Below, one piece after another: positions 9,578 to 49,363 of a stretch of DNA of 55,335 nt. Position 1 is the stretch's first letter, and every line of letters begins with the position of its first letter. The stretch comes from Clostridia bacterium (GTDB lineage Bacteria > Bacillota > Clostridia > Christensenellales > Aristaeellaceae). Below the pieces are notes generated by a model. That model was not told the origin of the DNA, did not search any database, and saw only the letters and a program-made list of their open reading frames with translations. The stretch spans positions 1 through 55,335 of the forward strand of contig JAFZOG010000085.1 in assembly GCA_017550745.1 (NCBI GenBank), given 5' to 3'. The translations under genes and the position numbers were made by a program.

Positions 9578-9607
9578 AGAAGAGCGTCCTCCCATTGTCT
9601 GTCTTTT

Positions 9608-14155: not shown

Positions 14156-17100
14156 ATGGATGATCGTAAAGCACTGCCGGAAGGAACCGTATTGAAATTT
14201 CCCGGAATGGAATGTGCTATTATGAACGAGGTCGGGCGCGGCTCCAACGCCATTGTTTATCGCGGGCGTTATGCGGACACCTTTCACCAGACCTTGAACC
14301 ATTATGTGCTCATCAAAGAACTGTTTCCCCTGCATCCCGCGAACGAAATATACAGAGCCAGCGATGGAAGCATTATCTGCACTGCGGAGGGAAAAGCGCT
14401 GTGGGATATTCATCGGCAGAGCTTTGAAACAGGCAATCGGGCGCATCTGTCCCTGATGGAAGCAAGCCCCGACCAGATCGGGTCCAACCTGAACACCTAT
14501 GGGCTAAACGGCACGCTGTATACCGTGATGGGGCTGAGCGGCGGCCGCAGCCTTGAATCCCTCGCCTCCGGCGAAGCGCAAAGCCTGCGGCTGCAAACGG
14601 AACGGATGCTGAACATACTGGACGCGCTGGAGGTGTTCCACCAAAACGGATTGCTGCATCTGGACGTTGCCCCTGACAACATTCTCATTTCCCGTTCCGG
14701 CAGCCAGGAGCGGGTAACGCTCATCGATTTCAACAGCTGCGCTGCAGTGGGGCCCAACGGTATGCATGCGTCTGCCGCAGCAAGCGTGAAGCAGGGTTAC
14801 ACCGCTCCGGAAATCCGCAGCGGCTGGCTGAACCAGGTGGGCGTTCCGGCAGATTTATACTCCGCCACGGCAGTTTTTTTTCGCCTGATCACCGGCGCTC
14901 CCCTTACCCCCTTTCAAATGATTCGCAATCAGCCGCCCGACGTGAACCAATGCCAGTGTATGCGTCAGATGCCGGAAACGGTTCGCAGCCTGACAGCGCA
15001 GATCCTTCGGCGGGGCTTGTATTCCCTGCCTCAAAAGCGGTACCAATCCGCGGAGGAAATGCGAAATGACCTGCGGGAATTGCTGAATCGGATCGACGGG
15101 GTCGGCATCACTTATTCAGCGCTGTGGGAGGTTGGGCACCGAAATGCGCAGCGTATGGTGCGCCAAAACGCTTCCCTGGCCTATATGAGCAAAACGGAGG
15201 ACCTGTATCCGCTCCGCGTGCAATGGTATAATAACGAGGAAAGCGAAGCTTTCCGTCTCGGCGGGCCCCGCAGGGAAGCACGCCGAGCGTTATGGTATAA
15301 TAAGGATGAGCGCACGGGCGAAGCCGTGGCGCGTGTCGGCGGCTCCCGAAGGGAAAGACGCCGACCATCATGGTATAATAACGAGCGAACCGGCCCGAAG
15401 GGGACGGTTGCGCGTCTCGGCGGGCCCCGAATGGGCGCACGCCGAGCGTTATTGCAAAATGGCGGAGCTGTAGTTTCCGCGCAGGAGTTCACTTTGGAAG
15501 TGCTCCATCGCCGTGAACATGCCGTGCTGCTGCTGGGAGCGGGAGGCATGGGAAAATCCACGCTGCTGATGCGCATGGCGTTGGAAGCGTCCAGCCGGTA
15601 CCGGCCCACAGAGCCTGCCATGCTGTATGTGCCCCTTTCGTCCTGGAAACAGAATGAAACAAGCTTTCTGCTTGATCATATCCTTCAGGACATGAAATTT
15701 GACCTCTCTACCCGGACGATGGAGGACGCCCGCCATGCGCTGACCGACCTGCTGGCCGGAGGCGGCGGAAAAAAAGGAACGCTCATGCTGCTGTTGGACG
15801 GGATGAACGAAGCATCCGGCGATATATCAGCGCTGGTGGAGGAAATCAACCGGCTCTCCGCTCTGCCCGGCCTGCGCGTACTGGTCACCAGCCGCAGCGT
15901 ACCGGAAAAATTAAAAGCGGAACAAGCGGCGCTCGTTCCGCTCGCCCCCCAGGACGTAAGCGGCGCGCTGGCCAAGAACGGCCTTCTGCTGCCGGAAAAA
16001 CCTGAAATGCAGCGGCTTTTGCAAACTCCCATGATGCTCTCCATGTTCATTCAGACCGCCCAGGCGCAGAACGGGCAGGTTTTATGCGGCACAGAGCAGG
16101 AACTGCTGGAAAGCTATTTTCAGTCCCTCGGCGGCAAAACCGAAAAGGATGGAGAGGCCGCTCGTTATCAGGCGGACATGGCGATTCAGCTGATTCTGCC
16201 CCGTATTGCGAACAGGATGAAGCGGCATCCTGCCGGCATGGATGACCGAGCCCTGATGGAAAATGTGCTCCCCTGCCGGGTTCTGCTGCGCAGCCGTGTC
16301 CTTGCCACGGCATTTCCTCAGTGGATCGGCCATGGCGGCGAACTGTCCGGCGGCAAAGCGATGAGCAATGACGCCTGGTACGCACAGATTGTCCAGCAGC
16401 TTTTATGGAAGCGCCTGGGCTTGCTCCTTAGGGACGGGGCGGGGCGTTATCATATGCCTCATCAGATTCTCCAGGAATACCTGTGTGGGAAAGCCCGTGA
16501 GAATCAGCGCAGGATACTGCTGGCGCGTTATCGCAGGATTGCCTTGGCCGCGGCTGTATTGCTGCTGGCGGCAGCCTGTTCCCTGGCGGTTTATGAAATC
16601 GCTTTGAAGCCGGAACCGCCTCATTACTTCGAGGTGGAATACAGCAACGTGCTGCTGGAGGGCATCTGGCCGGCCTATAAGCAATGCGAAACACAGCGCG
16701 AGGCCTTGAAAAACTTGCTGGAAGGCATCATACTGACGGCTGAATGCAAAAAGAAGGTGGCCGACAATGCGGACCTACCTGCTGCAAGGACGATGTTTGC
16801 GACGATCCTAAAGATGTCGGAAACCCCCCAATGGGTCGTGGCCGGTTCCGGGAACACCATTGATTTTGAACACTGTATGGCGCTGCTGAATCTGCCCAAA
16901 GAGCAGGGAGAAGCTTATCAGGTCTATATCGACGGCTACGAGTTGCTCCGGGGCGGAAGCGAAAACGATTCCTTGAAGGATTATTGTGAAGCATTGGAAA
17001 ACCTGCTCACGCTGGATCAGGAAGCGGCTGAGCTTCTGTGTAAACTGGTATGGGTTCCGCATATGGCGTTGGAGGAGCAAAATGAGCGCTGGGTCAATAT

Positions 17101-17290
17101 CCGCAGCGGCATGGACCGCTCGGAAAAACTTGAATGGAAGGAACTGTTCATTGGGCAGAAAGGCAATTTGAAGGAATTGCTTGAAATGCTGTCAGCGGAA
17201 TTGGAAGAAACAAACGCGGCCAGGAAAGCGGCTCAGGATGGCCTGGCGGCACGTTTCCCTTTTCTTGAACAATGCATGAAAAAGGAGTAA
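14156..17290 (+). CDS. Protein kinase - STAND NTPase fusion with membrane anchor
   Basis: A 1044-aa protein. Residues ~20-315 form a Ser/Thr kinase domain: glycine loop GRGSNAIVY (27-35), Lys54 in VLIKE, catalytic loop HLDVAPDN (168-175) with Asp170, and DFN (191-193) in place of DFG. The usual catalytic-loop Lys is replaced. Residues 357-432 carry three Trp/Arg-rich repeats encoded by palindromic DNA. Residues ~455-700 form a STAND/NACHT-like P-loop module: LGAGGMGKST (Walker A, 460-469), LLLDGMNEA (Walker B, ~545-553) and VTSRS. A membrane helix lies at about 797-813 and a ~230-aa helical tail follows. The likely role is a sensor that signals by phosphorylation and NTP-driven conformational change. 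The targets are unknown. Confidence 0.88.
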   Translation: MDDRKALPEGTVLKFPGMECAIMNEVGRGSNAIVYRGRYADTFHQTLNHYVLIKELFPLHPANEIYRASDGSIICTAEGKALWDIHRQSFETGNRAHLSLMEASPDQIGSNLNTYGLNGTLYTVMGLSGGRSLESLASGEAQSLRLQTERMLNILDALEVFHQNGLLHLDVAPDNILISRSGSQERVTLIDFNSCAAVGPNGMHASAAASVKQGYTAPEIRSGWLNQVGVPADLYSATAVFFRLITGAPLTPFQMIRNQPPDVNQCQCMRQMPETVRSLTAQILRRGLYSLPQKRYQSAEEMRNDLRELLNRIDGVGITYSALWEVGHRNAQRMVRQNASLAYMSKTEDLYPLRVQWYNNEESEAFRLGGPRREARRALWYNKDERTGEAVARVGGSRRERRRPSWYNNERTGPKGTVARLGGPRMGARRALLQNGGAVVSAQEFTLEVLHRREHAVLLLGAGGMGKSTLLMRMALEASSRYRPTEPAMLYVPLSSWKQNETSFLLDHILQDMKFDLSTRTMEDARHALTDLLAGGGGKKGTLMLLLDGMNEASGDISALVEEINRLSALPGLRVLVTSRSVPEKLKAEQAALVPLAPQDVSGALAKNGLLLPEKPEMQRLLQTPMMLSMFIQTAQAQNGQVLCGTEQELLESYFQSLGGKTEKDGEAARYQADMAIQLILPRIANRMKRHPAGMDDRALMENVLPCRVLLRSRVLATAFPQWIGHGGELSGGKAMSNDAWYAQIVQQLLWKRLGLLLRDGAGRYHMPHQILQEYLCGKARENQRRILLARYRRIALAAAVLLLAAACSLAVYEIALKPEPPHYFEVEYSNVLLEGIWPAYKQCETQREALKNLLEGIILTAECKKKVADNADLPAARTMFATILKMSETPQWVVAGSGNTIDFEHCMALLNLPKEQGEAYQVYIDGYELLRGGSENDSLKDYCEALENLLTLDQEAAELLCKLVWVPHMALEEQNERWVNIRSGMDRSEKLEWKELFIGQKGNLKELLEMLSAELEETNAARKAAQDGLAARFPFLEQCMKKE
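15224..15454 (+). repeat. Three in-frame palindromic repeat units inside a gene
   Basis: Units start at 15224, 15293 and 15371 (69-81 bases). Each opens with TGGTATAATAA (second A varies) and contains a hairpin CTCGGCG...CGCCGAG (the middle copy is TCGGCG...CGCCGA). All keep the reading frame and encode WYNN...RLGGPRR-type 23-27 residue repeats between the kinase and NTPase domains. The palindromic nature suggests inserted mobile DNA, comparable in concept to Rickettsia palindromic elements. Confidence 0.75.
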
Positions 17291-17343: not shown

Positions 17344-18456
17344 GTGAAAATATGCTCTTTTCTGATGGTTCTTATATTGCTTGCCGTCCGGCTGCCCTGC
17401 GCTATGGCGGACGAACCCACAGATACGGACGCGCTGCTGGCGGATTTTTCTTCGCTGGTGCAGGCGAAGGAACAGCTTTATCGCATTGAAACGGATATGT
17501 ACAAGGCCGTACTGCAATTCGTAATCAACAACGATTATGATTCTCTCCTTACCGCAAGGACTTTGTGCAGCCAGGCAGTACAGGAAATCCGGGATTTCCA
17601 GCCGCCTGAAATGATGATGAGCGACAGCATGATTCTGTATTACCTGGAAAAAGGGGTTGAGGTAGACGGGCTGGAAGCGGAGTTTCTTACCCTGCGCCGG
17701 GAGATTTCCAGCTTTCTGGCGGAGGCGGAAACCCTGGAAGCCTGCCTGTACACCTCCGTTTACCGAGTCAGCGGCCTGCCCCAGCTGGCAGCATTGGCTT
17801 CCTCTGTGAAGGAATTGCTGGACAGCAGTGCGGTGTACGACACCTACGCGGTCGAGTATCTGCTGTCTCCGCTGGCTCAGGAAGGAAAGGTGGAGCAGTT
17901 CAAGCGCGATATGGGCAGGTTTTTTCCGGAAGATTGGCTGGAGACGGAGGCGGATCAGAACCAGCAATCCGCCGCCATCCAGCGGAAAATCAACCAGCTT
18001 TCCACCACGGAAAAGATCTATCAAAATACCTATCTGCTTTTTGGCTCCGGGCAGGATGATCCCAACAGTGAGCCGTACGGCGGCCAGGATCCCGCCAGCG
18101 ATGTGAACATCATCAAGGGGATGCCTGCCATGATTCCCAGCCCTGAGTGGCCTGGCGGGGAAACCACGGTGCTTCAGGCGTCCGAAGGCCAAACGGATTC
18201 CGGCATGCCTGCCCTGATGTCCCGTTCGTATTCCGGCATTACCATGGAAGAGTTTCACGCCTATTTTGATACTCTTGCTTCCCTGGGCATTGGGACTTTT
18301 TACCTCACTGACGGCGGGGAAGCGGAGAAAAGCGTTGTCACCCTGGAGGGCGGCTCCTTTTCGTTTTACCGGACGCCCGAAGGCCAGGCAGCCATCGTCT
18401 ACGATCCCCATGCCTATACGCTGGAACCTGCCTGGTATGTACAATACGCTGAATAA
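17344..18456 (+). CDS. Secreted helical protein of unknown function
   Basis: 370 aa from GTG at 17344, with GGAGGG eight bases ahead. A TTG start at 17323 is less likely because it would put WRDQT before the signal peptide. The signal sequence (KICSFLMVLILLAVRL, cleavage near AMADE) is followed by ~220 residues of amphipathic helices. Then comes a Pro/Gly-rich linker with PSPEWPGGET, and a C-terminal domain of about 100 residues. I recognise no family. It lies 53 bases downstream of the kinase-STAND gene and upstream of a terminator, so the two probably form one transcript. It may be an extracellular partner or ligand-sensing subunit. Confidence 0.75.
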   Translation: MKICSFLMVLILLAVRLPCAMADEPTDTDALLADFSSLVQAKEQLYRIETDMYKAVLQFVINNDYDSLLTARTLCSQAVQEIRDFQPPEMMMSDSMILYYLEKGVEVDGLEAEFLTLRREISSFLAEAETLEACLYTSVYRVSGLPQLAALASSVKELLDSSAVYDTYAVEYLLSPLAQEGKVEQFKRDMGRFFPEDWLETEADQNQQSAAIQRKINQLSTTEKIYQNTYLLFGSGQDDPNSEPYGGQDPASDVNIIKGMPAMIPSPEWPGGETTVLQASEGQTDSGMPALMSRSYSGITMEEFHAYFDTLASLGIGTFYLTDGGEAEKSVVTLEGGSFSFYRTPEGQAAIVYDPHAYTLEPAWYVQYAE

Positions 18457-18472
18457 CATCAGCACAAACATG

Positions 18473-18501
18473 AGCGCTGCATTTCTTGCGGCGCTTTTTT
18501 T
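18473..18501 (+). terminator. Intrinsic terminator after the 370-aa gene
   Basis: AGCGCTGC and GCGGCGCT form a stem with one internal mismatch, followed by a run of seven T. It separates the kinase transcription unit from the downstream eight-gene operon. Confidence 0.75.
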
Positions 18502-18646: not shown

Positions 18647-19396
18647 ATGCAGGATAACCTAAAACAATCAGCGGAAGAAATTTTTCGGCAGTCTTTCCGG
18701 GAAAACGGCGTGACAAAATCATTCGGCGTTTCAGCGTGCGTCTCCAATGCCCTGGCTTCCGTGACCGTGGATCGGGATTACCTGGCGCAGCGGATCGCGC
18801 AGATCCTGGACGGCAATCATGCCAATCCCATCAACGCGCTGCTGGGCATTTTCGGTTTGAAGATCGTGAGTAAAAACGGCGCGATGCAGGAACTGGATTC
18901 GCTCATGAACGAAAACCTGGTGGTGGAGGCCGATACCGGCACGCAGGTTTCCTTCCTGCGTCTTAACGAAGCGGCCATCCGGACTGCCGCTGACCAGATG
19001 GCTCAGAACCTTCGGAAGATCGAAGACCAATGGCGGGAAGAAACAGCCGCGCGGCAGGAGGAAGCGAACAAGCTGCGCATTGAGCTGGATCAAAGCCGCC
19101 AGGAAACGGAGGCGCAGCGGTCAGCCTTGACGCGGCAGCGGCAGGCGGCGGCAGAGCAGATCCAATATATCCTCAGCATCCTGGGCCCGGAGAAAAATAA
19201 GACGAGTGACATGCTGGGAGAATTGCTGGAGGATTTGAACCTCACCGCCCGCTGGAACGCGGATGGCACATCGCTCTTGGAATCAGCTATGTTTTCTGTG
19301 CTCAAATGCAGCGGCCCTGAAAGCAGAAAAATGAAGCCCTGCATCCTCTCGGAAGACGGCGTTATGGTGAAAGGGCTGCGTTTTACGAAAGCATGA
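18647..19396 (+). CDS. Coiled-coil protein, first gene of the Hsp70/HerA operon
   Basis: 249 aa from ATG at 18647 with a GGTGAGG ribosome site; frames upstream have none. The first ~110 residues are helical (AEEIFRQSFRENG...) with no known domain. Residues ~115-170 form a strong charged coiled coil (EETAARQEEANKLRIEL and on). A C-terminal ~70-residue domain follows. No signal peptide or membrane helix is seen. It is 21 bases ahead of the Hsp70-like gene, a position typical of nucleotide-exchange or adaptor partners (GrpE is also a coiled coil plus domain), but no GrpE signature is visible. Confidence 0.75.
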   Translation: MQDNLKQSAEEIFRQSFRENGVTKSFGVSACVSNALASVTVDRDYLAQRIAQILDGNHANPINALLGIFGLKIVSKNGAMQELDSLMNENLVVEADTGTQVSFLRLNEAAIRTAADQMAQNLRKIEDQWREETAARQEEANKLRIELDQSRQETEAQRSALTRQRQAAAEQIQYILSILGPEKNKTSDMLGELLEDLNLTARWNADGTSLLESAMFSVLKCSGPESRKMKPCILSEDGVMVKGLRFTKA

Positions 19397-19417
19397 TGAT
19401 AAGGAAGGAAAAGAGAA

Positions 19418-21631
19418 ATGGCAAAGAAGTTATTTATCGGTTATGACCTGGGCGACGGCGAAACCATCACCGATCTGGCGATTCTGGACGACCGCCAGAT
19501 GAAGGAAGGCAGCTGCGTAGCGTTCGTCGGCATGACCATGCCCGACAGCAACACCCCCGGCCAGGCCATTCCCACGGTGTTCGGCGTGGACAGGAACAGC
19601 GGCCGCGTGGTCTTTTCCTCCAGCATCCTCAGCGACCCGGAGGAAGTGGAAAACATCCACAGCAACTTCAAGCGCTGCCCCTCGGATCAGATCGGCCCGG
19701 TGTCCGAAAGCCGCCGGATGGAGCTGATCCGCGAGGTGGAAAACGGCTGGCCCCAGCGGGACAAAGCCCCGGAGCTGTATACGGACAAGCTGCTGTCCTT
19801 TGCTAACGCGGTGAAGCAGTTTACGGACGCCCTCTTTACCGACGAAAAATACAAGAGCGTGATCGCCAGCGCCGCGGTGGGCTGCGTGGAGATTGTTTTC
19901 TGCATCGGCCACCCTACCCGCTGGGACGAACTGGACGCAGCCATCTATAAGGCGATCCTCATGAACACCGTAATCGGCGGGAAGGAATTCGCCGATACAA
20001 AATCATCGCTGGTGATGGCGGCGGAATCCCGGGCCGCGTTCCTCTATGTGAAGAACAAGACCGGCATGGTGGATGTGCTGCCCAAGGGCAAGAGCGCGCT
20101 GCTCATCGACATGGGCTCCTCCACCATCGACCTGACCGCCATGTCGGCGGACTCCCGGAACCATCAGTATAACAGCGGGAGCAACTACCTGGGCGCCCGG
20201 GGCATTGATTTCCTGATTCTGGACTGGTATCTGGAGCGGCTGCGCCGGAAACCGGAGGACTGGAATGATTACCGGCAACTGGTCCGGCAGAACCCCACCA
20301 TGAAACAGGCTGCCATTCTGAGCTGCCGCAAAGCCAAGGAAGATGTGTTCAGCCAAAGCTCCGGCAAGGGCCGGATCATCTTTGCCGATTTCGCGCCCAT
20401 GCGGATCACCCAGGAGGACGTGGTGAAGCTGGCTTCGGAAAAGCCCCTGGCAGACGCGCTGAAGCAGTTCATCAATCTGCCGGCAGAAGAAGCTGAGCGC
20501 ATGAGCATCCTGAGTTGGACGGAGCTGTTCAACCAGTTTCTGGTGGAGAAGCGCGCGGAAATGGTCAAACAGCATGTGGATGTAAGCCGCATCATCCTCA
20601 CCGGCAGCGCGTCCAAAATGCCCTTTGCAGGGGAAATCATCAAGCAGGTGTTCCCGAAAACTGAGCTGCTCAATGATGCGGATCCTTCCCGCTCGATTTC
20701 CATGGGCTTGGCTCTGGTGGGCCCATCGAACGATAAATCCAGCGGTTTCCAGCAGGAGTTGAACCGGGTGGTGCGCCAGGAAGTGCCCGAAATCATCCGG
20801 CAGGATATGGCGGAATTAGCCAACGAGCTGTCTCCCGTCATCGAGAGCATCGTGATGGACATCGTGCAGAAGAGCATCCAGCGCTGGCGTTCCGGCAAGC
20901 TGGCCACGCTGAATGATATGTCCCAGGCGATCCAGCAGGATTGCGGCAAGGAAAAGCTGGACAGGCTGCTGTCTGAAAACCAGCAGTACAATGCCGCCAT
21001 TGACGGCTGGATCGTGAACGTGATCGGCCGTGACATCGCGATCAAGCTCAAGGCGGCCTGCGATAAGTACAGCATGAGCGGCCTGGACCTGGATCAGCTC
21101 AACATGCTCAAGGTGACCGATATTAACCTGGGAGGCAAGCTGATCGTGTCCCCCGGCGAAGAGATCATTCAGGCGATTTCCACGGTGCTTTCCCTGGTGG
21201 CCGGTATCATCTCAGCAGTCATTCTGCCCACCGTGCTGGGCGTGGTGATCGGCCTGATCGCCATCATCTCGGTGGATATCGCCGCGCTGCTGCTGGCCCT
21301 GCTGCTGATGATCCCCGGCTGGGGCTGGGCGATCCTGATCGGCCTGGCGGGCTATGCGGTGTTCAAGGCCGTACGGGACGGCATGGGCGGCGCGAAGGCA
21401 CAGCTGCTGGAAAAGCTGCAGAACGCCAATCTGCCTCTGAAGGCCCGCGGATTGATCGGCGACCAGAAAATCAAGGAAAAGCTGAGAGAAACGGGCATGC
21501 AGAAGAAAGTCAAGGATTCCATCCTGGACGCCCGCAACATTGACCAGATCGTTTCTTCCGTGTCCGACAAGCTGAGCGTGCTGATCCTCAAGCGCGCCGA
21601 AGACATCAAGTACGTGCTGGAAAGCAAATAA
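19418..21631 (+). CDS. Hsp70/actin-fold ATPase with C-terminal membrane domain
   Basis: A 737-aa protein. The N-terminal ~430 residues show the actin/Hsp70 ATPase pattern: phosphate-1 loop GYDLGDGETIT (8-18), phosphate-2 ALLIDMGSSTIDLT (~227-240) and adenosine motif IILTGSASKMPF (~390-401). The classical substrate-binding domain is missing; a helical region follows, then a hydrophobic stretch at about 585-650 with two or three membrane helices (ISTVLSLVAGIISAVILP and onward). A charged helical tail ends the protein. It probably acts at the inner face of the membrane as an ATP-driven chaperone or scaffold. It is in an operon with the HerA-type ATPase and the peptide-modifying genes. Confidence 0.85.
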   Translation: MAKKLFIGYDLGDGETITDLAILDDRQMKEGSCVAFVGMTMPDSNTPGQAIPTVFGVDRNSGRVVFSSSILSDPEEVENIHSNFKRCPSDQIGPVSESRRMELIREVENGWPQRDKAPELYTDKLLSFANAVKQFTDALFTDEKYKSVIASAAVGCVEIVFCIGHPTRWDELDAAIYKAILMNTVIGGKEFADTKSSLVMAAESRAAFLYVKNKTGMVDVLPKGKSALLIDMGSSTIDLTAMSADSRNHQYNSGSNYLGARGIDFLILDWYLERLRRKPEDWNDYRQLVRQNPTMKQAAILSCRKAKEDVFSQSSGKGRIIFADFAPMRITQEDVVKLASEKPLADALKQFINLPAEEAERMSILSWTELFNQFLVEKRAEMVKQHVDVSRIILTGSASKMPFAGEIIKQVFPKTELLNDADPSRSISMGLALVGPSNDKSSGFQQELNRVVRQEVPEIIRQDMAELANELSPVIESIVMDIVQKSIQRWRSGKLATLNDMSQAIQQDCGKEKLDRLLSENQQYNAAIDGWIVNVIGRDIAIKLKAACDKYSMSGLDLDQLNMLKVTDINLGGKLIVSPGEEIIQAISTVLSLVAGIISAVILPTVLGVVIGLIAIISVDIAALLLALLLMIPGWGWAILIGLAGYAVFKAVRDGMGGAKAQLLEKLQNANLPLKARGLIGDQKIKEKLRETGMQKKVKDSILDARNIDQIVSSVSDKLSVLILKRAEDIKYVLESK

Positions 21632-21646
21632 GAGATATTTTTCTCC

Positions 21647-21667
21647 CCGGCGGCGAAAAGCCGCCGG
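21647..21667 (+). promoter_or_regulatory. Hairpin before the 335-aa gene
   Basis: CCGGCGGC (21647-21654), loop GAAAA, GCCGCCGG (21660-21667). It has no T-run and sits just upstream of the ribosome site, so it is probably an mRNA-stabilising or translation-tuning structure within the operon. Confidence 0.45.
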
Positions 21668-21690
21668 AGGGAGAGAACGGGGGAGAGCAA

Positions 21691-22698
21691 ATGAAAGCGG
21701 AGCTGTTTTACGATCCGGTGTGCCTGGAAACCCTGGTGCGGATCAACGGCCGTGTTACGGATCAGACGGATATTTTCGGTTTTCTGTACCCCGTCCGCAG
21801 GTGCCTGCTGCAAGCGTGGCTTCCGCCTTCCGGCTCCTGGCCCGGCCTGGCCCGGCAGGTGGCGGAGCTGGCCCGGGGAGAAGAAACGGAGCTGGTTTTC
21901 CACGGCAGGGAAATTGACTGGGCTGATCTCAGCGCGTGCCTGGACGGGCTGTCGGATGTCCGCCTGGCCTTTGACCTGTGGGACGCGGTGGAAGCACGCC
22001 GCCGACAGATCGAAACGGCGCGGGCCATGATCTGCGGCCTGATGCGCGAGCGGGTAGCCATGGAATGGGGAAACGGCAGCGACGTGTATAAAACGGGCAG
22101 TGACCTGTTTCCCGAAGTCAGAGAGCGGCTGGAAGCCTGCCTGACGGAGGATCCTCCGTGGATATACGCCGTCGCTTCCGAAGCGGATGAGCGCCGGGTG
22201 CAGCGGGAGACGGGGTGCTGCGTCATAGAAGAACAATATCTTCAGTCGTTTGAACGCCTGTCCGTCCTGGACACGCTGACCCGCTCCATGCGCCGCAGCG
22301 CGGACATGATCGTGTGCCGGTTCACGGACGAAACAAAGCTTTCTGATTTTCGGACATACTGCGGGCAGCTGCCCGGCCAGAAGCCGCGCTTTGCCCTCGC
22401 CGGTCATGACGAATGGAAGGAAGCGCTGGAGGAAAAATACGGCGAGCCCATCCGGCTTCGGCAGCAGCTTCAGGCGCTGCGCAGCGGCGCGGGCCTGCTG
22501 GAAGAATTGCTGGCCGGCAAAGACGAATTGAGCGCCCGGATCAGGGAAATGCGCAGGACCCAGGAGGAAAGCCCGGAGCTGGCACATCTGGAATCCCGGC
22601 AGATATGGCTGCGGTCCCTGTCCCATAAAATGGACGGCGTGCGCAATGCGCTGTCCCAGGAAATGACGGCGATACAAAAGGAGACGACAGAAGCATGA
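21691..22698 (+). CDS. Unknown protein coupled to the HerA-type ATPase
   Basis: 335 aa, soluble and predominantly helical, Arg/Glu-rich. The N-terminal part begins ELFYDPVCLETLVRINGR. A central region contains ERRVQRETGCCVIEEQYL, and the C-terminal ~100 residues are long helices likely to form a coiled coil. No family is recognised. Its last four bases overlap the ATG of the HerA-type gene (ATGA), so the two are translationally coupled, which usually means they act in one complex. A regulatory subunit or adaptor of the ATPase is the simplest reading. Confidence 0.78.
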   Translation: MKAELFYDPVCLETLVRINGRVTDQTDIFGFLYPVRRCLLQAWLPPSGSWPGLARQVAELARGEETELVFHGREIDWADLSACLDGLSDVRLAFDLWDAVEARRRQIETARAMICGLMRERVAMEWGNGSDVYKTGSDLFPEVRERLEACLTEDPPWIYAVASEADERRVQRETGCCVIEEQYLQSFERLSVLDTLTRSMRRSADMIVCRFTDETKLSDFRTYCGQLPGQKPRFALAGHDEWKEALEEKYGEPIRLRQQLQALRSGAGLLEELLAGKDELSARIREMRRTQEESPELAHLESRQIWLRSLSHKMDGVRNALSQEMTAIQKETTEA

Positions 22699-25600
22699 AC
22701 AACGCATCGGAAACGGTCCTGAGCCAGGCGCAAACCGGCGAGCTGGTTTCCTGGGCGGAGCGGATCATCCAGCAGACGCAGTTTGAACTGCTGGACGTGC
22801 TCACCCCCCGTTCCATCGACGCGGCCACGGAAAAGATCCAGGCCGGGGATGTGATCTGCCTCTTTCAGGTGACAGAACTGGTATTCAATCGCTCCGAGGG
22901 CAGCCAAGAGCGGTTTTCTACGGTGCTCAACTCCCTGCATGCCTGCGGCGCTTCCTGCCTGATGCTGCTGCAGTGCCATAACGGGCGCAGCGAGCTCTAC
23001 CTGGGCGCGGTGAACAAGCGCCGGTACGACAACGTCTATTTCCTCAACACCATCCGGGAAGCGATGCGTATCGGCATCGAAGGCAACCTGCCCGGCACGG
23101 AGCTGAAGGAAATCGTTTCCCGGCAGGAAATCCAGGAAAAGCTGCGGGAATGCGTGGACAACGGGTTTGACAGCCAGTGCGTCACCGCCATCTCCTGCGT
23201 TGCCAGCGACCAGAAGGAAAGCGGCCCCGCGCCTCATGGTATCGAACGGCTGCTGGAGGCCATCGGCAGGCGCAACTTCACCCTGATGGTGCTGGCGGAC
23301 CCGGTGGACACGGAGAACATGAAAAAGGTGCGCCGGGGGTATGAGGCGCTGGCCAGCCAGCTCTCCGCCCTGGAGCAGTCCTCCCTGTCCGTGCAGAGCG
23401 GCGTGAGCCTGACGGAATCCACCAGCTATTCCGAATCCGTCAGCAACAGCTGGAGCGAGAACATTTCCATGACCCAGAGCCATACCTCCGGCACCGGCTG
23501 GAGCTCCGCCAAGGACGACAAGGCCACCCGAAACAAGCGCCTCACCGGCGCGGCGGTGGGCCTTCTGTCCGGCAACTATATCGCCATGAGCGCCGTATCC
23601 GCCGTGCTGGGCATGAACCAGCAGACCCGGAGCGCCCACGAGGACGACAGCTTTTCCAGCCAGTACAGCGAAAGCAGCGGCACCCAGACCACCCTGCAGA
23701 AGGGCGGCGGCGAGGCCCGGGCCACCTCCGAAAGCGCCACCATCGGCTGCAGCACCACGGATTACCACATCAAAAACCTGCGGGAGCGCGTAGCCTGGTA
23801 TCTGCAATGGCTGAACCGCCGGGAAAACCTGGGCATGTTCAACTGCTGCGCTTACGTGATCTCCAGCAGCGCCAGCATGAACCTGATGGTGGCCAGCCAG
23901 TATCAGGCGCTGATGCAGGGCGAAGGGGAAATGAACCAGCCCATCACCATCAACACCTGGTCGGAAGGCGCGGGGGTGGAGGAGATCCGCCAGTCCCTGC
24001 TGCATCTGACCCATCCGGCTTTCCGCTATAAGGACATGAGCGAGAATTTCACGCCCGCCGTGCTCCAGAGCAGCAAGGAACTGGCCCGGCAAATGGCGCT
24101 TCCCCAGCGCTCCGTGGTGGGCATCACGGTGATGGAATACGCGCCCTTCGGCCGGGAGGTGGTGCGCAAGACCGTGCTGCACAGCGGCCGGGTGATCCGC
24201 CTTGGCAGCGTATCGCATATGGGCAAGGCGTCGCCGGACCAGCCGGTGCTGCTGGACCTGCAAAGCCTGGCAGCCCACACGTTCGTGGCGGGCACCAACG
24301 GCTCGGGCAAATCCAACACCGTTTTCCGCATGCTGGAAGGGCTGAAGGAGGCGGGGATTCCCTTCCTCGTCATCGAGCCGGCCAAGGGCGAATATAAAAA
24401 CGTTTTTGGCCATGACCCGGACGTCCGGGTGCTGGGCACCAATCCCCAGCGGTCGGAGCTCCTGCGGATGAACCCATTCTGGTTCAACGAGGATGTGAAC
24501 GTCCTGGAGCATATCGAGCGGCTCCTCAGCGTGTTCAACGCCAGCTGGCCCATGTACGCCGCCATGCCGGCAGTGCTCAAGGCAGCTATGGAAAGCGCCT
24601 ACCGGGCCTGCGGCTGGGACCTGAAAAGGTCCGCCTGCCGGGGCGCGGTACGTCTGTTTCCCACGGTGCAGGATGTGCTGGAGCAATTCAACGGCAAAAT
24701 GGAATCCACCGCGTTTTCCCAGGAGGTGAAAGGCAATTACGTGGGTGCGCTGTCCACGCGGATGGAATCCCTGTGCAACGGCATTTACGGAGAGATTTTC
24801 GGCGGAGCGAACATCACGGACGAAACGCTGTTTGACAGCAACGTAATCATCGACTTAAGCCGCGTGGGTTCCGTGGAAACCAAGGCCATGCTCATGGGCG
24901 TGCTGCTGATCCGGCTGGAGGAATATAGGATGCGCTCGGAAGCGATGAACGCCCTCCTGCGGCATGTCACCGTGCTGGAGGAAGCCCATCACCTGCTTCG
25001 CCGCACCTCCGCCGCGCAGAGCGACGAAGGCGCCAATATACTGGGCAAATCCGTCGAAATGATCGCCACCGCCATCGCGGAGATGCGCTCTTACGGCGAA
25101 GGCTTCATGATCGTGGATCAGTCTCCGGGCCTGCTGGACATTTCCGTGATGCGCAACACCAACACCAAGGTCATCCTGCGCCTGCCCGAAGGCGGCGACC
25201 GGGATATTGTAGGCGCCACCATGGGGCTGACGCCTGAACAGGTGTTTGAGATTTCCCGGTTCAAAACGGGCCTGTGCGCGGTGTATCAGCAGAACTGGCT
25301 GGAAGCCGTTCTGTGCCAGGTGGACCGGGCCGGGCACGAGGCGAAGGTTTATACCCGCCCCGCGCAGACGGACGAGGAAACCCTCCGGCGGGCCCGGATC
25401 GTGCGTGCGCTGGTGACGCCTTTCCTCGGTGCCCCCCATGAACCCGCCCCGGATCAAAAGGAGCTGATGGCCTGTATCGAGGCGTGCGGCCTGCCCGGCG
25501 CCGCCAAGCGGCGGCTGCTTTCCCGGGCGGAGCAGGGTATACGCGGCGCGTCCTGGCATGAGATCCGGGCGCTGGCTGTCCTGGCTGCAGGCGAAATGCC

Positions 25601-26255
25601 AGCCCCGCTTCCCCCTGTGACCGCAGAAAGCGTGGAAGCCTGGCGGCAGGAGCAGATGAACGATCCGGACATGATTGCCCTGTGGGGCGCGGATTGCCTG
25701 CCCTTATTGATCAAGGCTAAGGCCCAGGTTTTGGCGGAACAGGCGGAAGAATGGGCCCAGGCGCTGACCCGCCTGCCGATCCTGCAAAGCAGCGCGGATG
25801 ACCGGCTGAAAAAGAGCCGCGGCCTGGCAGCGGCCTGGATCTGCCCGCTTAATACCCGGCCCAAGGAGCTGGATGCGGAAAGCCTGGAGGCCGCCTTCAC
25901 CGCCCTGACGGCGGAAGGCGCGGCAGATCAGGCCCTTGTCGGACTGCTGCGCCATGCGCTGGACACGGGCGCCATGCGGGAAAAGGGCGTCATTCAGCCT
26001 TATGCCGATGTGGTCTGGACATTGCTGGGGGGCCGGCAGCGGTGGGACGCGCTGTTTGAACGCATTCGCCTGAACGACATTGCCGGGTGGGACGAAGCGG
26101 CGCGCGTCTGTCTGCGGGAAGCGATGGATACCGACAGGAACACGGAGACTTCCGTACTCTCCCTGTTCCTGCAGAAGAAAGGCGCGCTGCCGGAGGTCAG
26201 GCGGTTCTTCCCCAGGTGGATGAATTACGCCCGCCGACAGCGCGCGGAGCAGTAA
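22695..26255 (+). CDS. HerA/VirB4-type hexameric ATPase (DUF87-like)
   Basis: An 1186-aa protein. The N-terminal ~230 residues are an unknown alpha/beta region. Residues ~235-365 are strikingly Ser/Thr/Gln-rich and low-complexity (SLTESTSYSESVSNSWSEN) and contain a hydrophobic GAAVGLLSGNYIAMSAVSAV patch. The ATPase core follows: Walker A GTNGSGKS (533-540) and Walker B VTVLEEAHH with Glu762-Glu763. A conserved TKVILRLPEGGDRD region and a ~300-aa helical C-terminus complete it. The HerA/FtsK family pumps DNA or, as VirB4/TraC relatives, powers secretion. No nuclease (NurA) neighbour is present, so DNA repair is less likely than transport or assembly work. Confidence 0.88.
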   Translation: MNNASETVLSQAQTGELVSWAERIIQQTQFELLDVLTPRSIDAATEKIQAGDVICLFQVTELVFNRSEGSQERFSTVLNSLHACGASCLMLLQCHNGRSELYLGAVNKRRYDNVYFLNTIREAMRIGIEGNLPGTELKEIVSRQEIQEKLRECVDNGFDSQCVTAISCVASDQKESGPAPHGIERLLEAIGRRNFTLMVLADPVDTENMKKVRRGYEALASQLSALEQSSLSVQSGVSLTESTSYSESVSNSWSENISMTQSHTSGTGWSSAKDDKATRNKRLTGAAVGLLSGNYIAMSAVSAVLGMNQQTRSAHEDDSFSSQYSESSGTQTTLQKGGGEARATSESATIGCSTTDYHIKNLRERVAWYLQWLNRRENLGMFNCCAYVISSSASMNLMVASQYQALMQGEGEMNQPITINTWSEGAGVEEIRQSLLHLTHPAFRYKDMSENFTPAVLQSSKELARQMALPQRSVVGITVMEYAPFGREVVRKTVLHSGRVIRLGSVSHMGKASPDQPVLLDLQSLAAHTFVAGTNGSGKSNTVFRMLEGLKEAGIPFLVIEPAKGEYKNVFGHDPDVRVLGTNPQRSELLRMNPFWFNEDVNVLEHIERLLSVFNASWPMYAAMPAVLKAAMESAYRACGWDLKRSACRGAVRLFPTVQDVLEQFNGKMESTAFSQEVKGNYVGALSTRMESLCNGIYGEIFGGANITDETLFDSNVIIDLSRVGSVETKAMLMGVLLIRLEEYRMRSEAMNALLRHVTVLEEAHHLLRRTSAAQSDEGANILGKSVEMIATAIAEMRSYGEGFMIVDQSPGLLDISVMRNTNTKVILRLPEGGDRDIVGATMGLTPEQVFEISRFKTGLCAVYQQNWLEAVLCQVDRAGHEAKVYTRPAQTDEETLRRARIVRALVTPFLGAPHEPAPDQKELMACIEACGLPGAAKRRLLSRAEQGIRGASWHEIRALAVLAAGEMPAPLPPVTAESVEAWRQEQMNDPDMIALWGADCLPLLIKAKAQVLAEQAEEWAQALTRLPILQSSADDRLKKSRGLAAAWICPLNTRPKELDAESLEAAFTALTAEGAADQALVGLLRHALDTGAMREKGVIQPYADVVWTLLGGRQRWDALFERIRLNDIAGWDEAARVCLREAMDTDRNTETSVLSLFLQKKGALPEVRRFFPRWMNYARRQRAEQ

Positions 26256-26279
26256 ACAAACGAAAGGAGGAAAGCAGAA

Positions 26280-27002
26280 TTGGAACAAGGCATGGACAGC
26301 CTGGATCAGGTGCTGGAAATACAAAAGCCGGAAAACGAAGGGCTGAATGAAACGGCGGTGCTGGAGCCAAGGCTGATGGAGATCCCCGAATACGGTGAGG
26401 TACTGGTAGGCGGTGACCCCTTCGGCATCGCCGGCCAGCTGGACGACAACCAGGGCGACAATGTGCTGAACGCCCAGGGGGACTGCGGACTGGTTTCCGT
26501 AACAAACATTCTCAGGCAGGCGGGCATGGAGGTGACGGAGGACGAGGTGGTGCTGGCGGCAGTGGGCAACCGGCTGTGCAGCTATTCCACCGATCAGGAC
26601 GCGGGGGACAATGGCGGCACCAACGTGTATCACCGGCAGGCATTACTGAGCGGGTACGGTATTCCCGCTTCGGTGTATTCCCAATGGGACACGAAAAAGC
26701 TGGACCTGGAGGAAATCGCCGAATTCGTGGAAGCGGGCCATGGCGTGAACATCAGCGTCAACGCCGGGTACGCCTGGAATGAACCCAGTTACATCAACGA
26801 CGGCGGATCGAATCACAGCATCATCGTGACCGGAACGGTGCGGGATCCCGATACCGGAGAACTAAAAGGACTGATCGTGTGCGACAGCGGCATACCAGGC
26901 GACAGCAGCGCAAAGGTACTGTCCGCAGACACCCTGCGGGACGCCTATTCTGACGTGCCCACCGCCTCCGCGCTGATCACGGACCAACCCATCTGCGCGT
27001 AA
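26280..27002 (+). CDS. C39/papain-like cysteine peptidase
   Basis: 240 aa from TTG at 26280; AAAGGAGG lies nine bases ahead, whereas the ATG at 26292 would be 21 bases away. The first ~60 residues are acidic and probably unfolded. The catalytic layout of C39-like enzymes then follows: Gln66 and Cys69 in AQGDCGLVSVTNIL, His179 in SNHSIIVTG and Asp202 in IVCDSG. C39 peptidases trim double-Gly leaders of exported peptides; here no ABC transporter is fused. It lies two genes before the leader/core-like peptide, so leader removal is an attractive role. An alternative is a secreted or injected cysteine-protease effector. Confidence 0.78.
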   Translation: MEQGMDSLDQVLEIQKPENEGLNETAVLEPRLMEIPEYGEVLVGGDPFGIAGQLDDNQGDNVLNAQGDCGLVSVTNILRQAGMEVTEDEVVLAAVGNRLCSYSTDQDAGDNGGTNVYHRQALLSGYGIPASVYSQWDTKKLDLEEIAEFVEAGHGVNISVNAGYAWNEPSYINDGGSNHSIIVTGTVRDPDTGELKGLIVCDSGIPGDSSAKVLSADTLRDAYSDVPTASALITDQPICA

Positions 27003-27026
27003 AGGACTGAGAAAGGAGCGAAGAAA

Positions 27027-27542
27027 GTGATACAGCAATTCAGTAAAATCCTGGAGGAAAACCAACGAAAGACCGCGTACTGGTTCGATGACAGCGTATG
27101 TCTGTCCTATCCGCTTCCAGATATGAAAAACGGAAGAAAAACAGAGCGGATGTTCCTCTATAACCGCGGTGTGATGCGGCAGGAGGGCCCCAGGCCCTTC
27201 GGCCTGATGACGCTGGACTACGCGTCCGGCAGGCTCCTGGCGTATCAGGACGGCCGCCTGGAGGATTTCATGGATACAGCCGCGTATCCCTTTGACCGTC
27301 CTGTGAGCTACGCGCTTAACGGAAAGATCAGCGTGAAGGATTTCAAAATGGAGCAGGCCATGGTCCGGAAGCTCTACGAGGGGGTGCGCCGCTTCGCGTT
27401 TCAGGATACACTTACCAAGGAAGAAAAAGAAGTACTGGAAAAATTCTGCTTCCTGATGGAACACGCGGTGCCCGCGGAACTGCTTCCTTACTATGAAACC
27501 ATGGGAAAAAATTTTTATAGGTGGGTGAAAGAACATGTTTGA
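27027..27542 (+). CDS. Unknown 171-aa operon protein
   Basis: Starts at GTG 27027 with GAAAGGAGC ahead. The first ~90 residues look beta-rich (RMFLYNRGVMR, FGLMTLDYASGRLLAY); the remainder is helical and ends in NFYRWVKEHV. No signal or membrane segment is seen and no family is recognised. Its final eight bases overlap the start of the precursor-like peptide gene, so expression of the two is coupled. In RiPP loci, small proteins in this position are often recognition or chaperone proteins for the precursor. I see no winged-helix RRE signature I could defend. Confidence 0.7.
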   Translation: MIQQFSKILEENQRKTAYWFDDSVCLSYPLPDMKNGRKTERMFLYNRGVMRQEGPRPFGLMTLDYASGRLLAYQDGRLEDFMDTAAYPFDRPVSYALNGKISVKDFKMEQAMVRKLYEGVRRFAFQDTLTKEEKEVLEKFCFLMEHAVPAELLPYYETMGKNFYRWVKEHV

Positions 27543-27858
27543 AAAAATGGAAAGCGCCGTGAACCTGGAGCAGTGCGCGATCCCTGAACTGGACAGCGGG
27601 CTGGACGAATCCAAAGCCCTGGAAACCATGGAGCAGGAAACCAACGAAGCCCAGGATGCGGAAGCACCCGCCGGGCTGGAAGAAGTCGATGCTGTTTCAA
27701 GCATGGAGGGAATGATGGACGCATTGCAGCTGACCGATACGGAAAAAGAAAGCTTCCGTTCCATCGGCAAGGACGTATCGGGCCTTCCCATGGAAAACGG
27801 AGTGCGAGGCTATAAGCGGGGCAGCTGTTACGACCGTTTGATCCCCATTTACAGCTGA
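27535..27858 (+). CDS. Leader/core-type precursor peptide candidate
   Basis: 107 aa. Residues 1-72 are highly acidic and Glu/Met/Ala-rich, a typical leader composition. The C-terminal ~20 residues switch to a basic, Gly/Tyr/Arg-rich tail containing GVRGYKRGSCYDR (89-101), with Cys98 and three Tyr. This charge switch, the small size, the upstream overlap with the 171-aa gene and the radical SAM/SPASM gene directly downstream fit a ribosomally made, radical-SAM-modified peptide. The candidate acceptors are Cys98, Tyr93/99 and the nearby Arg/Lys. No double-Gly cleavage site is obvious; processing near 73-88 is inferred. It could instead be a small acidic adaptor protein. Confidence 0.65.
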   Translation: MFEKMESAVNLEQCAIPELDSGLDESKALETMEQETNEAQDAEAPAGLEEVDAVSSMEGMMDALQLTDTEKESFRSIGKDVSGLPMENGVRGYKRGSCYDRLIPIYS

Positions 27859-27863
27859 TACGG

Positions 27864-27899
27864 GCGGCGGTTCGCCCCCCTTCATATCTGGACCGCCGC
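27864..27899 (+). promoter_or_regulatory. Hairpin between precursor-like and radical SAM genes
   Basis: GCGGCGGT (27864-27871) pairs with ACCGCCGC (27892-27899) around a 20-base loop. No T-run follows. Such structures between peptide and enzyme genes can cause partial termination or protect the upstream mRNA, giving more peptide than enzyme. Confidence 0.5.
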
Positions 27900-27943
27900 T
27901 TCCTTATTCCCTCCCGCGCCTCGGACAGACAAAAGAAAGAGAT

Positions 27944-29068
27944 GTGATTGCTGTGAACAGCCGCGTGAAACTGGTCAATCTGCTGATGACCCGGGCCTGC
28001 AATCTGCGCTGCGCCTATTGTTATGTCCGCCACGGCTTCCATGACGCGATGACAGAGGAAACCGCGCACCAGGCGATCCAGGACGCCTTCGCCCGGGACG
28101 CGGACGACTTTGACCGGATCGAATTTGCGTTTCTCGGCGGGGAACCGTTCCTGGCGTTTCCCGTCCTGAAAGCGGTGTGCGAATGGATGTGGAGCCGCGA
28201 GTGGCCAAAGCCCTACTGCCTATCCGCATCCACCAACGGCACCGTGATCACCGGGGAAATCCGGGAATGGCTGGCGCGCAATCATCATCGCTTCTTTATT
28301 TCGCTCAGCTACGACGGAGGAAAGGACACGCAGAACGAAAACCGGAGCGGAAGCGCGGAAAAGATCGACCTGATGTTTTTCCAAAAATACTGGCCCCAAG
28401 TACCTCTGAAGCTGACGGCGGATGAACAGACGGTGGATCACCTGGCGCGGGACGTGATGGACCTGAAGGAGCGGGGTTTCCTGGTGAACGATACGTTCGC
28501 GGACGGCGTGCCGCCCTGGGAGGAGGACTCGCTTCGGCGGCTGGACGGCCAGCTGGCGCGTTTGTGCGCCTATGACCTGGCCCATCCCGGACAGGCGCCC
28601 AGCAGGCTGCTGAACATCGACCTCTCCTCCGTCCTTTCCAACGTGCCGAAGGATAGTTTTTGCTGCGGCGCAGGGCACAGCCAGGTGACCTATGACTGGG
28701 AAGGCAGCCGACACCCCTGCCATCTGCTTTCGCCGCTTGTCCTTTCGCCAGAGGAAATGGAGCAATTCAGGCGGGAGTGGCACGCACCGAAAAAAACCCT
28801 GACGGGCTGCCAGGGCTGCCCCCTGGACTCCATCTGCCCTGCCTGCGGCGGCAACGCGTTCCGGATGCACCATACCTGCTGGCGGCGGGAAGCAAAGACC
28901 TGCGCCCTATTCCTTCATCAGCTGTACTATGCCTGCGTTTTCCAAATGAAACGGCTTTTGGCCGACGATCAGCGTACAGGGAAGGACTTTCTGGCGTATG
29001 CGGCTGTGTGTAAAATCATGGGTCTTCAGATAATGCAGCCGATCATTGCCGGCGCACAGCCTGTGTAA
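27944..29068 (+). CDS. Radical SAM/SPASM peptide maturase
   Basis: 374 aa from GTG 27944 (GTG 27953 is an alternative with better spacing from AAGAAAGAGA). The radical SAM cluster motif is TRACNLRCAYC (Cys19, 23, 26), followed by the SAM-binding FLGGEPF. The C-terminal ~120 residues hold a Cys-rich SPASM-type auxiliary cluster domain: FCCGAGHSQ, HPCHL, CQGCPLDSICPACGG and late Cys in HTCWRREAKTC. SPASM enzymes such as AlbA, PqqE and anSME modify peptides or proteins. With the precursor-like gene immediately upstream, a peptide cyclase or cross-linker is the likely role. It is the last gene of the operon. Confidence 0.88.
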   Translation: MIAVNSRVKLVNLLMTRACNLRCAYCYVRHGFHDAMTEETAHQAIQDAFARDADDFDRIEFAFLGGEPFLAFPVLKAVCEWMWSREWPKPYCLSASTNGTVITGEIREWLARNHHRFFISLSYDGGKDTQNENRSGSAEKIDLMFFQKYWPQVPLKLTADEQTVDHLARDVMDLKERGFLVNDTFADGVPPWEEDSLRRLDGQLARLCAYDLAHPGQAPSRLLNIDLSSVLSNVPKDSFCCGAGHSQVTYDWEGSRHPCHLLSPLVLSPEEMEQFRREWHAPKKTLTGCQGCPLDSICPACGGNAFRMHHTCWRREAKTCALFLHQLYYACVFQMKRLLADDQRTGKDFLAYAAVCKIMGLQIMQPIIAGAQPV

Positions 29069-29075
29069 TATAATC

Positions 29076-29109
29076 GAAAAATGGGCGGAGGATGAATCAT
29101 CCCCCGCCC
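29076..29109 (-). terminator. Terminator of the NadD-NADAR gene
   Basis: GGGCGG/GGAT (29083-29093) pairs with ATCC/CCGCCC (29099-29109), with one mismatch. On the minus strand it is followed by ATTTTTCG, so it ends the minus-strand gene. It also lies just after the plus-strand radical SAM gene. Confidence 0.6.
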
Positions 29110-34189: not shown

Positions 34190-34191
34190 GT

Positions 34192-49283: not shown

Positions 49284-49312
49284 TTGACTTTTTCAGGGGA
49301 TTGTCGGATAAT
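49284..49312 (+). promoter_or_regulatory. Promoter of the DUF512-der-plsY operon
   Basis: TTGACT (49284-49289), a 17-base spacer, GATAAT (49307-49312). Its position rules out the TTG at 49301 as the DUF512 start. Confidence 0.65.
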
Positions 49313-49363
49313 ACAAGCGTTCAGAATGAAAGGCAGCGGATGAACCGGAAAGGAGGGGATGCC

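Follow-up and report, generated by a model that had tools for sequence, protein, structure and literature searches.

A HerA-centred gene block in a Clostridia bacterium, proposed as the Hsp70-type form of a broad family of effector-immunity systems

Introduction

Among the closest described relatives of the gene block considered here are the polymorphic toxin systems. In the part of PMC3482391 available to us, the toxin domains of these systems include the WHH, LHH, GH-E, NucA-like and papain-fold types, the immunity proteins include the SUKH, YezG (DUF600) and SUFU types, and a Tox-PL-C39 toxin class is described; neither 'dynamin' nor 'hsp70' is mentioned in 300,000 of the 357,715 characters of that paper. 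PMC7159879 describes nucleoside triphosphate-dependent conflict systems in which effectors are combined with HSP70, GTPase or STAND parts. The block itself (positions 18647 to 29068) consists of eight open reading frames (ORFs) on the plus strand of a 55,335-nucleotide stretch from a Clostridia bacterium (contig JAFZOG010000085.1 of GCA_017550745.1), the whole of which was analysed and is called the window below. The window is contig 123 of the host assembly, which holds 3.75 Mb in 186 contigs (88.78% complete, 7.45% contamination) and is probably a metagenome bin.

A sequence-only reading of the window had proposed that the block is a system for modifying and delivering a ribosomally synthesized and post-translationally modified peptide (RiPP), with the Hsp70- and HerA-type ATPases handling the product. 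We arrive at a different description, to which we give a probability of about 0.56: the block represents, in Hsp70-type form, a broad family of effector-immunity systems centred on HerA, and its RiPP is optional. A gene set made of a ring-type ATPase motor, a toxin-like enzyme and a likely antidote is apparently widespread and undescribed, and its Hsp70 form is rare. Among the matches listed for literature titles and the openings of abstracts (preprints not covered), none combines HerA with dynamin or Hsp70 and with toxin-immunity pairs.

Results

We begin by considering the order of the genes. The eight-gene block is a conserved unit, beyond a chance neighbourhood, because its core order (Hsp70-like, g3, HerA, C39-like, g6) recurs in seven loci, namely the window and six others, all from Bacillota. 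This recurrence supports the sequence-only reading in taking the genes as one unit, and the coordinates agree with its eight plus-strand genes and their spacing. Its gene labels also agree with the family searches, some of them weakly, the Hsp70 and C39 matches lying under the cut-offs. The genes of the block are as follows.

Gene 1, 18647..19396, plus strand: 249-residue coiled-coil-like protein
Gene 2, 19418..21631, plus strand: Hsp70/actin-fold-like ATPase (weak match) with a hydrophobic C-terminal part
Gene 3 (g3), 21691..22698, plus strand: protein with the N-terminal domain found in dynamin-like proteins of HerA loci
Gene 4, 22695..26255, plus strand: HerA/DUF87-type ATPase of 1186 residues
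Gene 5, 26292..27002, plus strand: papain/C39-fold protein with an acidic N-terminus, probable effector
Gene 6 (g6), 27027..27542, plus strand: 171-residue protein, probable immunity protein by position
Gene 7 (g7), 27535..27858, plus strand: 107-residue acidic peptide with the C-terminal Cys core GSCYDRLIPIYS, probable RiPP precursor
Gene 8, 27944..29068, plus strand: radical SAM/SPASM enzyme

The gaps between these genes are, in order, 21, 59, -4, 36, 24, -8 and 85 bases, and the fourth shrinks from 36 to 24 bases if gene 5 uses an earlier TTG start. Terminator-like stems stand on both sides of the block (18472-18496 and 29083-29109), in a region where the number of such stems is at chance level (13 versus 13.1 expected). 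Searches for Rfam families and tRNAs give no match.

The six other loci of the window type are L069/L151 (one contig, counted once), L147 (a Blautia sp. metagenome-assembled genome, MAG), L148 (a Clostridia MAG), L149 (an Oscillospiraceae MAG), L150 (a soil Bacillota MAG) and L152 (a Lachnospiraceae MAG). L147 to L152 were added by a contig search with a nine-member HerA alignment; an earlier contig search with gene 4 alone gave zero relatives, and the alignment was required. L069 comes from genome G491, of the same family as the window, and its proteins are 47%, 66%, 42%, 69%, 64% and 53% identical to those of genes 1 to 6. Homologs of gene 1 lie immediately 5' of the Hsp70-like gene in five of the six other loci; in L147 this gene is too close to the contig end.

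Combining these loci with the wider HerA family, we examine what stands next to HerA. Gene 4 matches the Pfam DUF87/HerA family (E 1.9e-9) over one DUF87 stretch, and its Walker-type stretches are intact. The contig search with the HerA alignment finds at least 533 relatives, and the counts given below for the wider family rest on the best 80 of these. The 80 loci belong mostly to Bacillota; Brachyspira, Leptotrichia, Synergistaceae, Pasteurellaceae, Lysobacteraceae, Paraburkholderia and one Porphyromonadaceae MAG are also represented. The HerA profile matches 17 of 391 genomes of the class, the window's own included, and two short unannotated records of a phage collection match gene 4. On the five plasmids that we examined, the annotation of the HerA gene goes no further than 'ATP-binding protein' or 'DUF87 domain-containing protein'.

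In 76 of the 80 loci the next gene lies on the same strand within 150 bases of HerA. Pfam families on these 80 following (+1) genes are Colicin-DNase (39), WHH (38), LHH (11), Endonuclea_NS_2 (9), SMI1_KNR4 (3), GH-E, Gln_amidase, C39_2 and DUF6782 (1 each) and a few others. By motif, the WHH-type (39) and LHH-type (11) sets are disjoint, and the remaining 30 genes were sorted by eye. About 61 of the 80 carry a nuclease or papain-fold toxin family, of five domain types; six more are window-type C39 proteins, three are SUKH-type and ten have no assignment. The three SUKH-type cases are L153, L166 and L175, where the effector was probably missed by the gene caller. The domain type in this slot varies between loci of the wider family.

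The second (+2) gene lies on the plus strand in 78 of the 80 loci, where Pfam gives SMI1_KNR4 (SUKH) 29 times, DUF6985 20 times, YezG-like twice and SUFU once. (For L147 the longer g6 ORF, 8034-8543, was put in by hand for a call of 76 residues.) Provided that these sets are disjoint, 52 of the 78 genes match one of the four families, and 20 of the 52 are DUF6985, a family without an assigned function. DUF6985, in 20 of the 78 +2 genes of L147-L226, is a candidate immunity family in its own right. As a control, we use the 73 loci that offer a distal gene of 100-400 residues; among the 25 families listed of the 94 matched by these 73 genes none of these toxin or immunity-type families appears, and the top count is 3. 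Toxin-immunity pairs beside HerA relatives in the window's own bacterial family comprise Endonuclea_NS_2 then YezG-like (L070) and Colicin-DNase/WHH then SUKH (L071); in L078 a papain-fold Gln_amidase is followed by a small protein without a family.

Several of these loci have features of their own. The IncI conjugative E. coli plasmid pTW10590_133 (L231) carries a cassette of dynamin, dynamin, hypothetical protein, HerA, HNH nuclease and SMI1/KNR4 protein, and its HerA is 45.4% identical over 46% of gene 4. By eye, L071 combines HerA with kinase-like, vWA-like and phosphatase-like genes, together with its large Colicin-DNase effector and SUKH protein; it is perhaps a kinase-regulated version of the HerA system, and L072 resembles it by eye. 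The HerA relative of L073 (G446:C66), 50% identical in part, is split over frames and apparently broken or mis-assembled.

The next question is "do the effectors share anything at their N-termini?" Of the 80 effectors, 22 have the motif [ALF][DN]xP[LIF] within their first 75 residues (1000 shuffles: mean 0.98, maximum 6), ahead of different toxin-type ends, and three of the 80 have it past residue 75. It is a candidate recognition signal, as judged from the sequences. It supersedes the expression [LIVM][DE][KR]P, found in 10 of the 80 (shuffles: mean 1.8, maximum 6).

We turn our attention to g3, the part that links the window type to the wider family. Gene 3 matches no Pfam family, and direct blastp finds it in 13 of the 80 HerA loci. 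A profile iterated from its first 200 residues finds the same domain in 60 of the 80, mostly at the N-terminus of proteins of about 760 residues that are encoded two or three genes 5' of HerA. The sole long g3 protein that was scanned (L129:5534-7789, a copy of the contig of L163) matches Dynamin_N at E 2e-15, and its counterparts on E. coli pTW10590_133, Lactococcus pB26B and Treponema pTS2 carry a dynamin family annotation. Of the 52 loci that have the long g3 protein, 44 also encode, between it and HerA, a protein with a hydrophobic segment towards its C-terminus. The g3 of the window type is a short protein, preceded by the Hsp70-like protein with its hydrophobic part.

This Hsp70-like protein (gene 2) has homologs 44-66% identical in the six other window-type loci, and it is present in 6 of the 80 HerA loci. 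Its match to Pfam HSP70 (E 0.0098, 14.6 bits) does not reach the cut-off of 20.6; among NCBIfam models, PRTRC_D (4.3e-5) and DnaK models (from 1.8e-4) are all far under their cut-offs. The best single match among Protein Data Bank (PDB) sequences is an Hsp70 (E 0.0076), and a profile of the seven-member family finds no PDB chain at E <= 0.001. An hhalign comparison of this profile with a DnaK gives E 0.0013 but a probability of 17.9, and with the Hsp70-like protein of L074 it aligns 21 columns only. The hydrophobic stretches of gene 2 lie at residues 583-639.

Matches to gene 2 at E <= 1e-20 occur in 45 of the 308 genomes of the family, at full length only in the window's genome and in G491. 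Distant Hsp70-like proteins, 24-29% identical, occur in 13 other genomes of the 396 in the order; blastp finds no other window gene in the 13 regions around them, where the gene caller can miss genes (in L028 and L029 it overlooked even the Hsp70-like gene). The viral contigs contain no relative of gene 2. Hsp70-family genes also stand near HerA in L136, L140, L074 and L076, those of L136 and L140 with other downstream genes. The Pfam HSP70 scores of L136 (two proteins, 36.7 and 46.3 bits), L140 (434) and L076 (21.8) pass the cut-off, and that of L074 (17.7) fails. In L140, HerA is followed by a 960-residue protein without a family match, a 135-residue protein and a DnaK-like Hsp70, three genes after HerA. 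In the Hsp70-like proteins of L074 and L076 it is the N-terminal part that is hydrophobic.

The slot after HerA is filled in the window by gene 5. Its match to Pfam C39_2 (E 2.2e-4, 22.3 bits) lies under the cut-off of 24, and a C39 profile against PDB sequences gives nothing useful. The AlphaFold2 model (predicted local distance difference test, pLDDT, 78.0; residues 1-23 of low confidence) is matched by Foldseek to phytochelatin synthase (2bu3, 7.1e-6), IdeS (9.5e-5), the ComA C39 domain (5xe8, 4e-4, with a template modelling score of 0.73 by target) and, more weakly, staphopain (2e-3). The predicted fold is papain-like, and Cys65, His175 and Asp198, invariant in all seven gene 5 homologs, would form its Cys-His-Asp active site. 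Where the sequence-only reading had a leader peptidase, we consider gene 5 more likely to be cargo, that is, the effector, because a C39-like protein here occupies the slot that toxin-domain effectors occupy in the HerA relatives. The N-termini of gene 5 and gene 7 are alike in wording, with 14 acidic and two basic residues in the first 60 of gene 5 (from start 26292) and 17 acidic and two basic in the first 60 of gene 7.

Gene 6 lies immediately 3' of gene 5 in all seven loci, and this position suggests that it is probably the immunity protein; the pLDDT of its model is 84.7. The theme returns in L074 and L076, where genes for another C39-like protein, a protein of 134-139 residues and an acidic peptide of 98-104 residues all lie 5' of the Hsp70-like and HerA genes, the C39-like call resting on a Pfam C39 match of only 0.028 in L074 and being made by eye in L076.

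The remaining two genes are a recurrent add-on to the system and not its core. Gene 8 matches the Pfam radical SAM family (1.1e-7), and its homologs are found in three of the seven loci (the window, L147 and L149), those of L147 and L149 being 47% identical to the window's. Gene 7 has no Pfam match; its Cys-ended homologs are found in the same three loci, so that enzyme and Cys-core peptide are always paired within the seven and never occur singly. The Cys-containing end is nearly the same in the window (GYKRGSCYDRLIPIYS) and L147 (GYKKGSCNERLIPIHN), and L149 has a different three-Cys end. Two of the three peptides have a C-x-[DE] core, a spacing other than that of PapB. L069/L151 has an acidic peptide of 67 residues whose gene shares 8 bases with gene 6, the same overlap as that of gene 7 in the window; this peptide has no Cys core and no enzyme beside it. 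Gene 7 is probably a RiPP precursor, whose Cys core gene 8 may cross-link.

The three SPASM enzymes form one clade (support 100/100), apart from seven outside relatives (the tree holds seven of the eight outside enzymes, L249 being left out). The leader/core-like peptide with a SPASM enzyme, as noticed in the sequence-only reading, is a recurring pair. Peptide modification as the purpose of the whole, in contrast, does not agree with the four of seven loci in which the enzyme is absent, nor with the L069/L151 peptide. That reading had also stated that it would be refuted if the pair had been inserted recently and had no connection with the ATPase genes; such an insertion is favoured by the pair being optional and opposed by its recurring in the same place. 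Mapped on the Hsp70 tree, presence and absence of the enzyme take three changes, at least two of them forced by well-supported branches and the fit being no better than with shuffled labels; therefore the enzyme was gained or lost more than once. Gene 8 was set aside as a genome marker, since 52 of 60 genomes match it (its own included), the others weakly. Two of the outside enzyme relatives adjoin small Cys-rich peptides (L251:7584-7778 and L252:8122-8310), likely ordinary RiPP pairs, and two more radical SAM matches lie in the window outside the block (34108-35280 and 49301-50662).

Upstream of the block are three further features.

386-residue protein, 12416..13576, minus strand: homologs adjoin the block in L069/L151 and L152; possible associate
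Ser/Thr kinase-NACHT protein, 14156..17290, plus strand: one hydrophobic segment
Secreted or membrane-anchored-looking protein, 17365..18456, plus strand: weak match in L069 only (E 0.009)

Homologs of the kinase-NACHT protein also precede the block in L069 and L152, and it is a possible regulator of the system. L069 has the 386-residue protein, the kinase-NACHT protein and genes 1 to 6 in the same order as the window. Two large minus-strand proteins farther upstream (1688-5881 and 7241-9595) resemble secreted clostripain-type peptidases.

Discussion

How might such a block work? A HerA ring would be the motor that drives cargo across the membrane towards other cells, and the membrane-bound Hsp70/g3 part would be its switch or anchor. 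Cargo would be recruited by its N-terminus. The main cargo would be gene 5, with its C39 fold probably a thiol protease or transferase toxin, from which gene 6 would protect the producer. Gene 7, with its similar acidic N-terminus, would be a second cargo, cross-linked at its Cys core by gene 8, and the upstream kinase-NACHT gene may control the system. Stated for the family as a whole, this becomes a tentative proposal, with somewhat less than even odds in our estimate: an unrecognised class of toxin delivery, spanning Bacillota, spirochaetes, Leptotrichia, proteobacteria and conjugative plasmids, in which a HerA hexamer motor is coupled via g3 to a dynamin-like GTPase or, more rarely, to an Hsp70-like membrane ATPase, cargo carries a short N-terminal signal, and the window's branch uses a C39-fold enzyme and a modified peptide.

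A number of observations weigh against the effector-immunity description of the block. No secretion channel or surface component is recognised, and export is our inference. The 80 HerA loci are the ones most like the window's rather than a random sample; of the 18 loci in the class-wide set, about 9 show a toxin-immunity pair clearly by eye (L129, L130, L132, L133, L137-L139, L144 and L146, as opposed to, e.g., L131 and L134). Among the 80, ten +1 genes have no toxin family and three, by eye, encode SUKH proteins. NucA-clade nucleases, to which the NS_2 type belongs, are widespread beyond toxins according to the part of PMC3482391 available to us. The cargo is C39-like in all seven window-type loci, and the variation in domain type lies only in the wider family. 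Gene 6 matches nothing in Pfam or NCBIfam, hence no known immunity family, and its model resembles no PDB fold at E <= 0.001. The Hsp70 identity of gene 2 is weak. As for the N-terminal signal, the motif was picked post hoc from the sequences, and the acidity of genes 5 and 7 is not general, the mean net acidity of cargo N-termini being 0.093 versus 0.077 further in (n=76). An expectation-maximization motif search is not relied on: its log-likelihood is 243.6 against 137.8-155.5 for 8 shuffles, but toxin-domain sequence is mixed in. Finally, both the kinase of the kinase-NACHT protein and HerA resemble components of a phage-defence system.

This last resemblance leads to another explanation, in which the block serves intracellular conflict, against phages or competing plasmids: invasion would be sensed by HerA together with dynamin or Hsp70, the nuclease or protease would be released by its inhibitor, and the cell itself would be killed or arrested; the +2 gene would be an antitoxin. 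PADLOC HerA models match gene 4 in stretches only, at up to 2e-15, while the mad8 model (the MADS8 ATPase) is almost wholly covered both by gene 4 (19-282 of 314, 1.1e-13) and by the E. coli plasmid HerA (20-290 of 314, 2.8e-23). The best NCBIfam model of the kinase part is the MADS6 kinase (4.8e-19, 68 of 460 bits), and in PADLOC this part matches PD-T4-6 (3.8e-24) and mad6 (8.2e-21). The E. coli plasmid dynamin is weakly LeoA-like (5.2e-6), WYL regulators are encoded upstream in the loci of Lactococcus and Treponema, some HerA loci are on conjugative plasmids, and the conflict systems of PMC7159879, as far as that paper was available, include HSP70 and GTPases. However, PADLOC (2023) recognises no complete named system, HerA and MADS included: at the limits used it gives no match for genes 1-3 or 5-7, for the long g3-dynamin, for the nuclease or for the SMI1 protein, and the further partners are unmatched save for generic radical SAM/viperin and WYL matches. 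Moreover, most of the effector domains are, in the part of PMC3482391 available, largely confined to polymorphic toxins, and they are paired here with SUKH, YezG and SUFU types. We regard intracellular defence as the main rival to the effector-immunity description, less likely than it but deserving serious attention.

Less credible still is the system of the sequence-only reading, a RiPP pathway with gene 8 acting on gene 7, the C39-like enzyme removing the leader and HerA/Hsp70 carrying the product out of the cell. The strict pairing of enzyme and Cys-core peptide, the near identity of the core in the window and L147, and a gene 5 fold that includes the C39 leader-peptidase type all speak for it. 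However, genes 5 and 6 are in all seven loci while peptide and enzyme are in only three, gene 5 sits in a slot that toxins use elsewhere, and the regions of the eight nearest outside enzyme relatives (all found at E <= 1e-35) contain no match to the HerA, Hsp70, C39, g6 or g3 profiles. We consider a RiPP system in this sense improbable. That the ATPase, peptidase and peptide genes are unrelated chance neighbours, as the rarity of the full set might suggest (a full-length Hsp70-like protein in 2 of 308 family genomes), is refuted by the identical order in seven loci of different bacteria.

Returning to the HerA-centred effector-immunity systems, the pairing of cargo with immunity gives the HerA family a testable function. 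If HerA moves proteins, the toxin delivery routes would gain a new motor with a GTPase or Hsp70 switch, and the presence of dynamin genes beside nuclease-immunity pairs on E. coli and Treponema plasmids would be accounted for. The RiPP branch would tie the chemistry of ribosomal peptides to such a system and, if true, would mean that a HerA-type motor exports a peptide product.

The comparison with known systems can be made part by part. The SPASM enzymes resemble PapB-type ranthipeptide maturases in their best NCBIfam model (PapB, NF047865) and in an adjoining Cys-containing precursor, with scores (109.3, 102.6 and 88.0 bits) far under the cut-off of 340. The NF033849 'serine-rich protein' model (ser_rich_anae_1), whose name gives no function, matches gene 4 (5.1e-12, 44 bits) and part of the HerA of L153 (2.8e-33, 114.4 bits) against a cut-off of 650. 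Type VII (ESX/Yuk) secretion is alike in its motor of the FtsK/HerA superfamily and its toxin-immunity cargo in Gram-positives; it differs in that the EssC-type ATPase has several FtsK domains whereas gene 4 has one DUF87 stretch, and there is no WXG/LXG family among the Pfam families of the +1 or +2 genes (the remaining locus genes were not scanned for these). The conflict systems in the available part of PMC7159879 are GTPase-tubulin-HSP70 and GrpE/DnaJ sets, the paper's single mention of HerA standing elsewhere in it, whereas the window's family is HerA with g3-dynamin. In the polymorphic toxin systems of PMC3482391, as in HerA loci of the wider family, a variable toxin domain is followed by a SUKH, YezG or SUFU gene; gene 6 of the window has the corresponding position but belongs to no known immunity family. 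Unlike in those systems, what stays constant in the HerA loci is a HerA of a single domain, partnered by dynamin or Hsp70.

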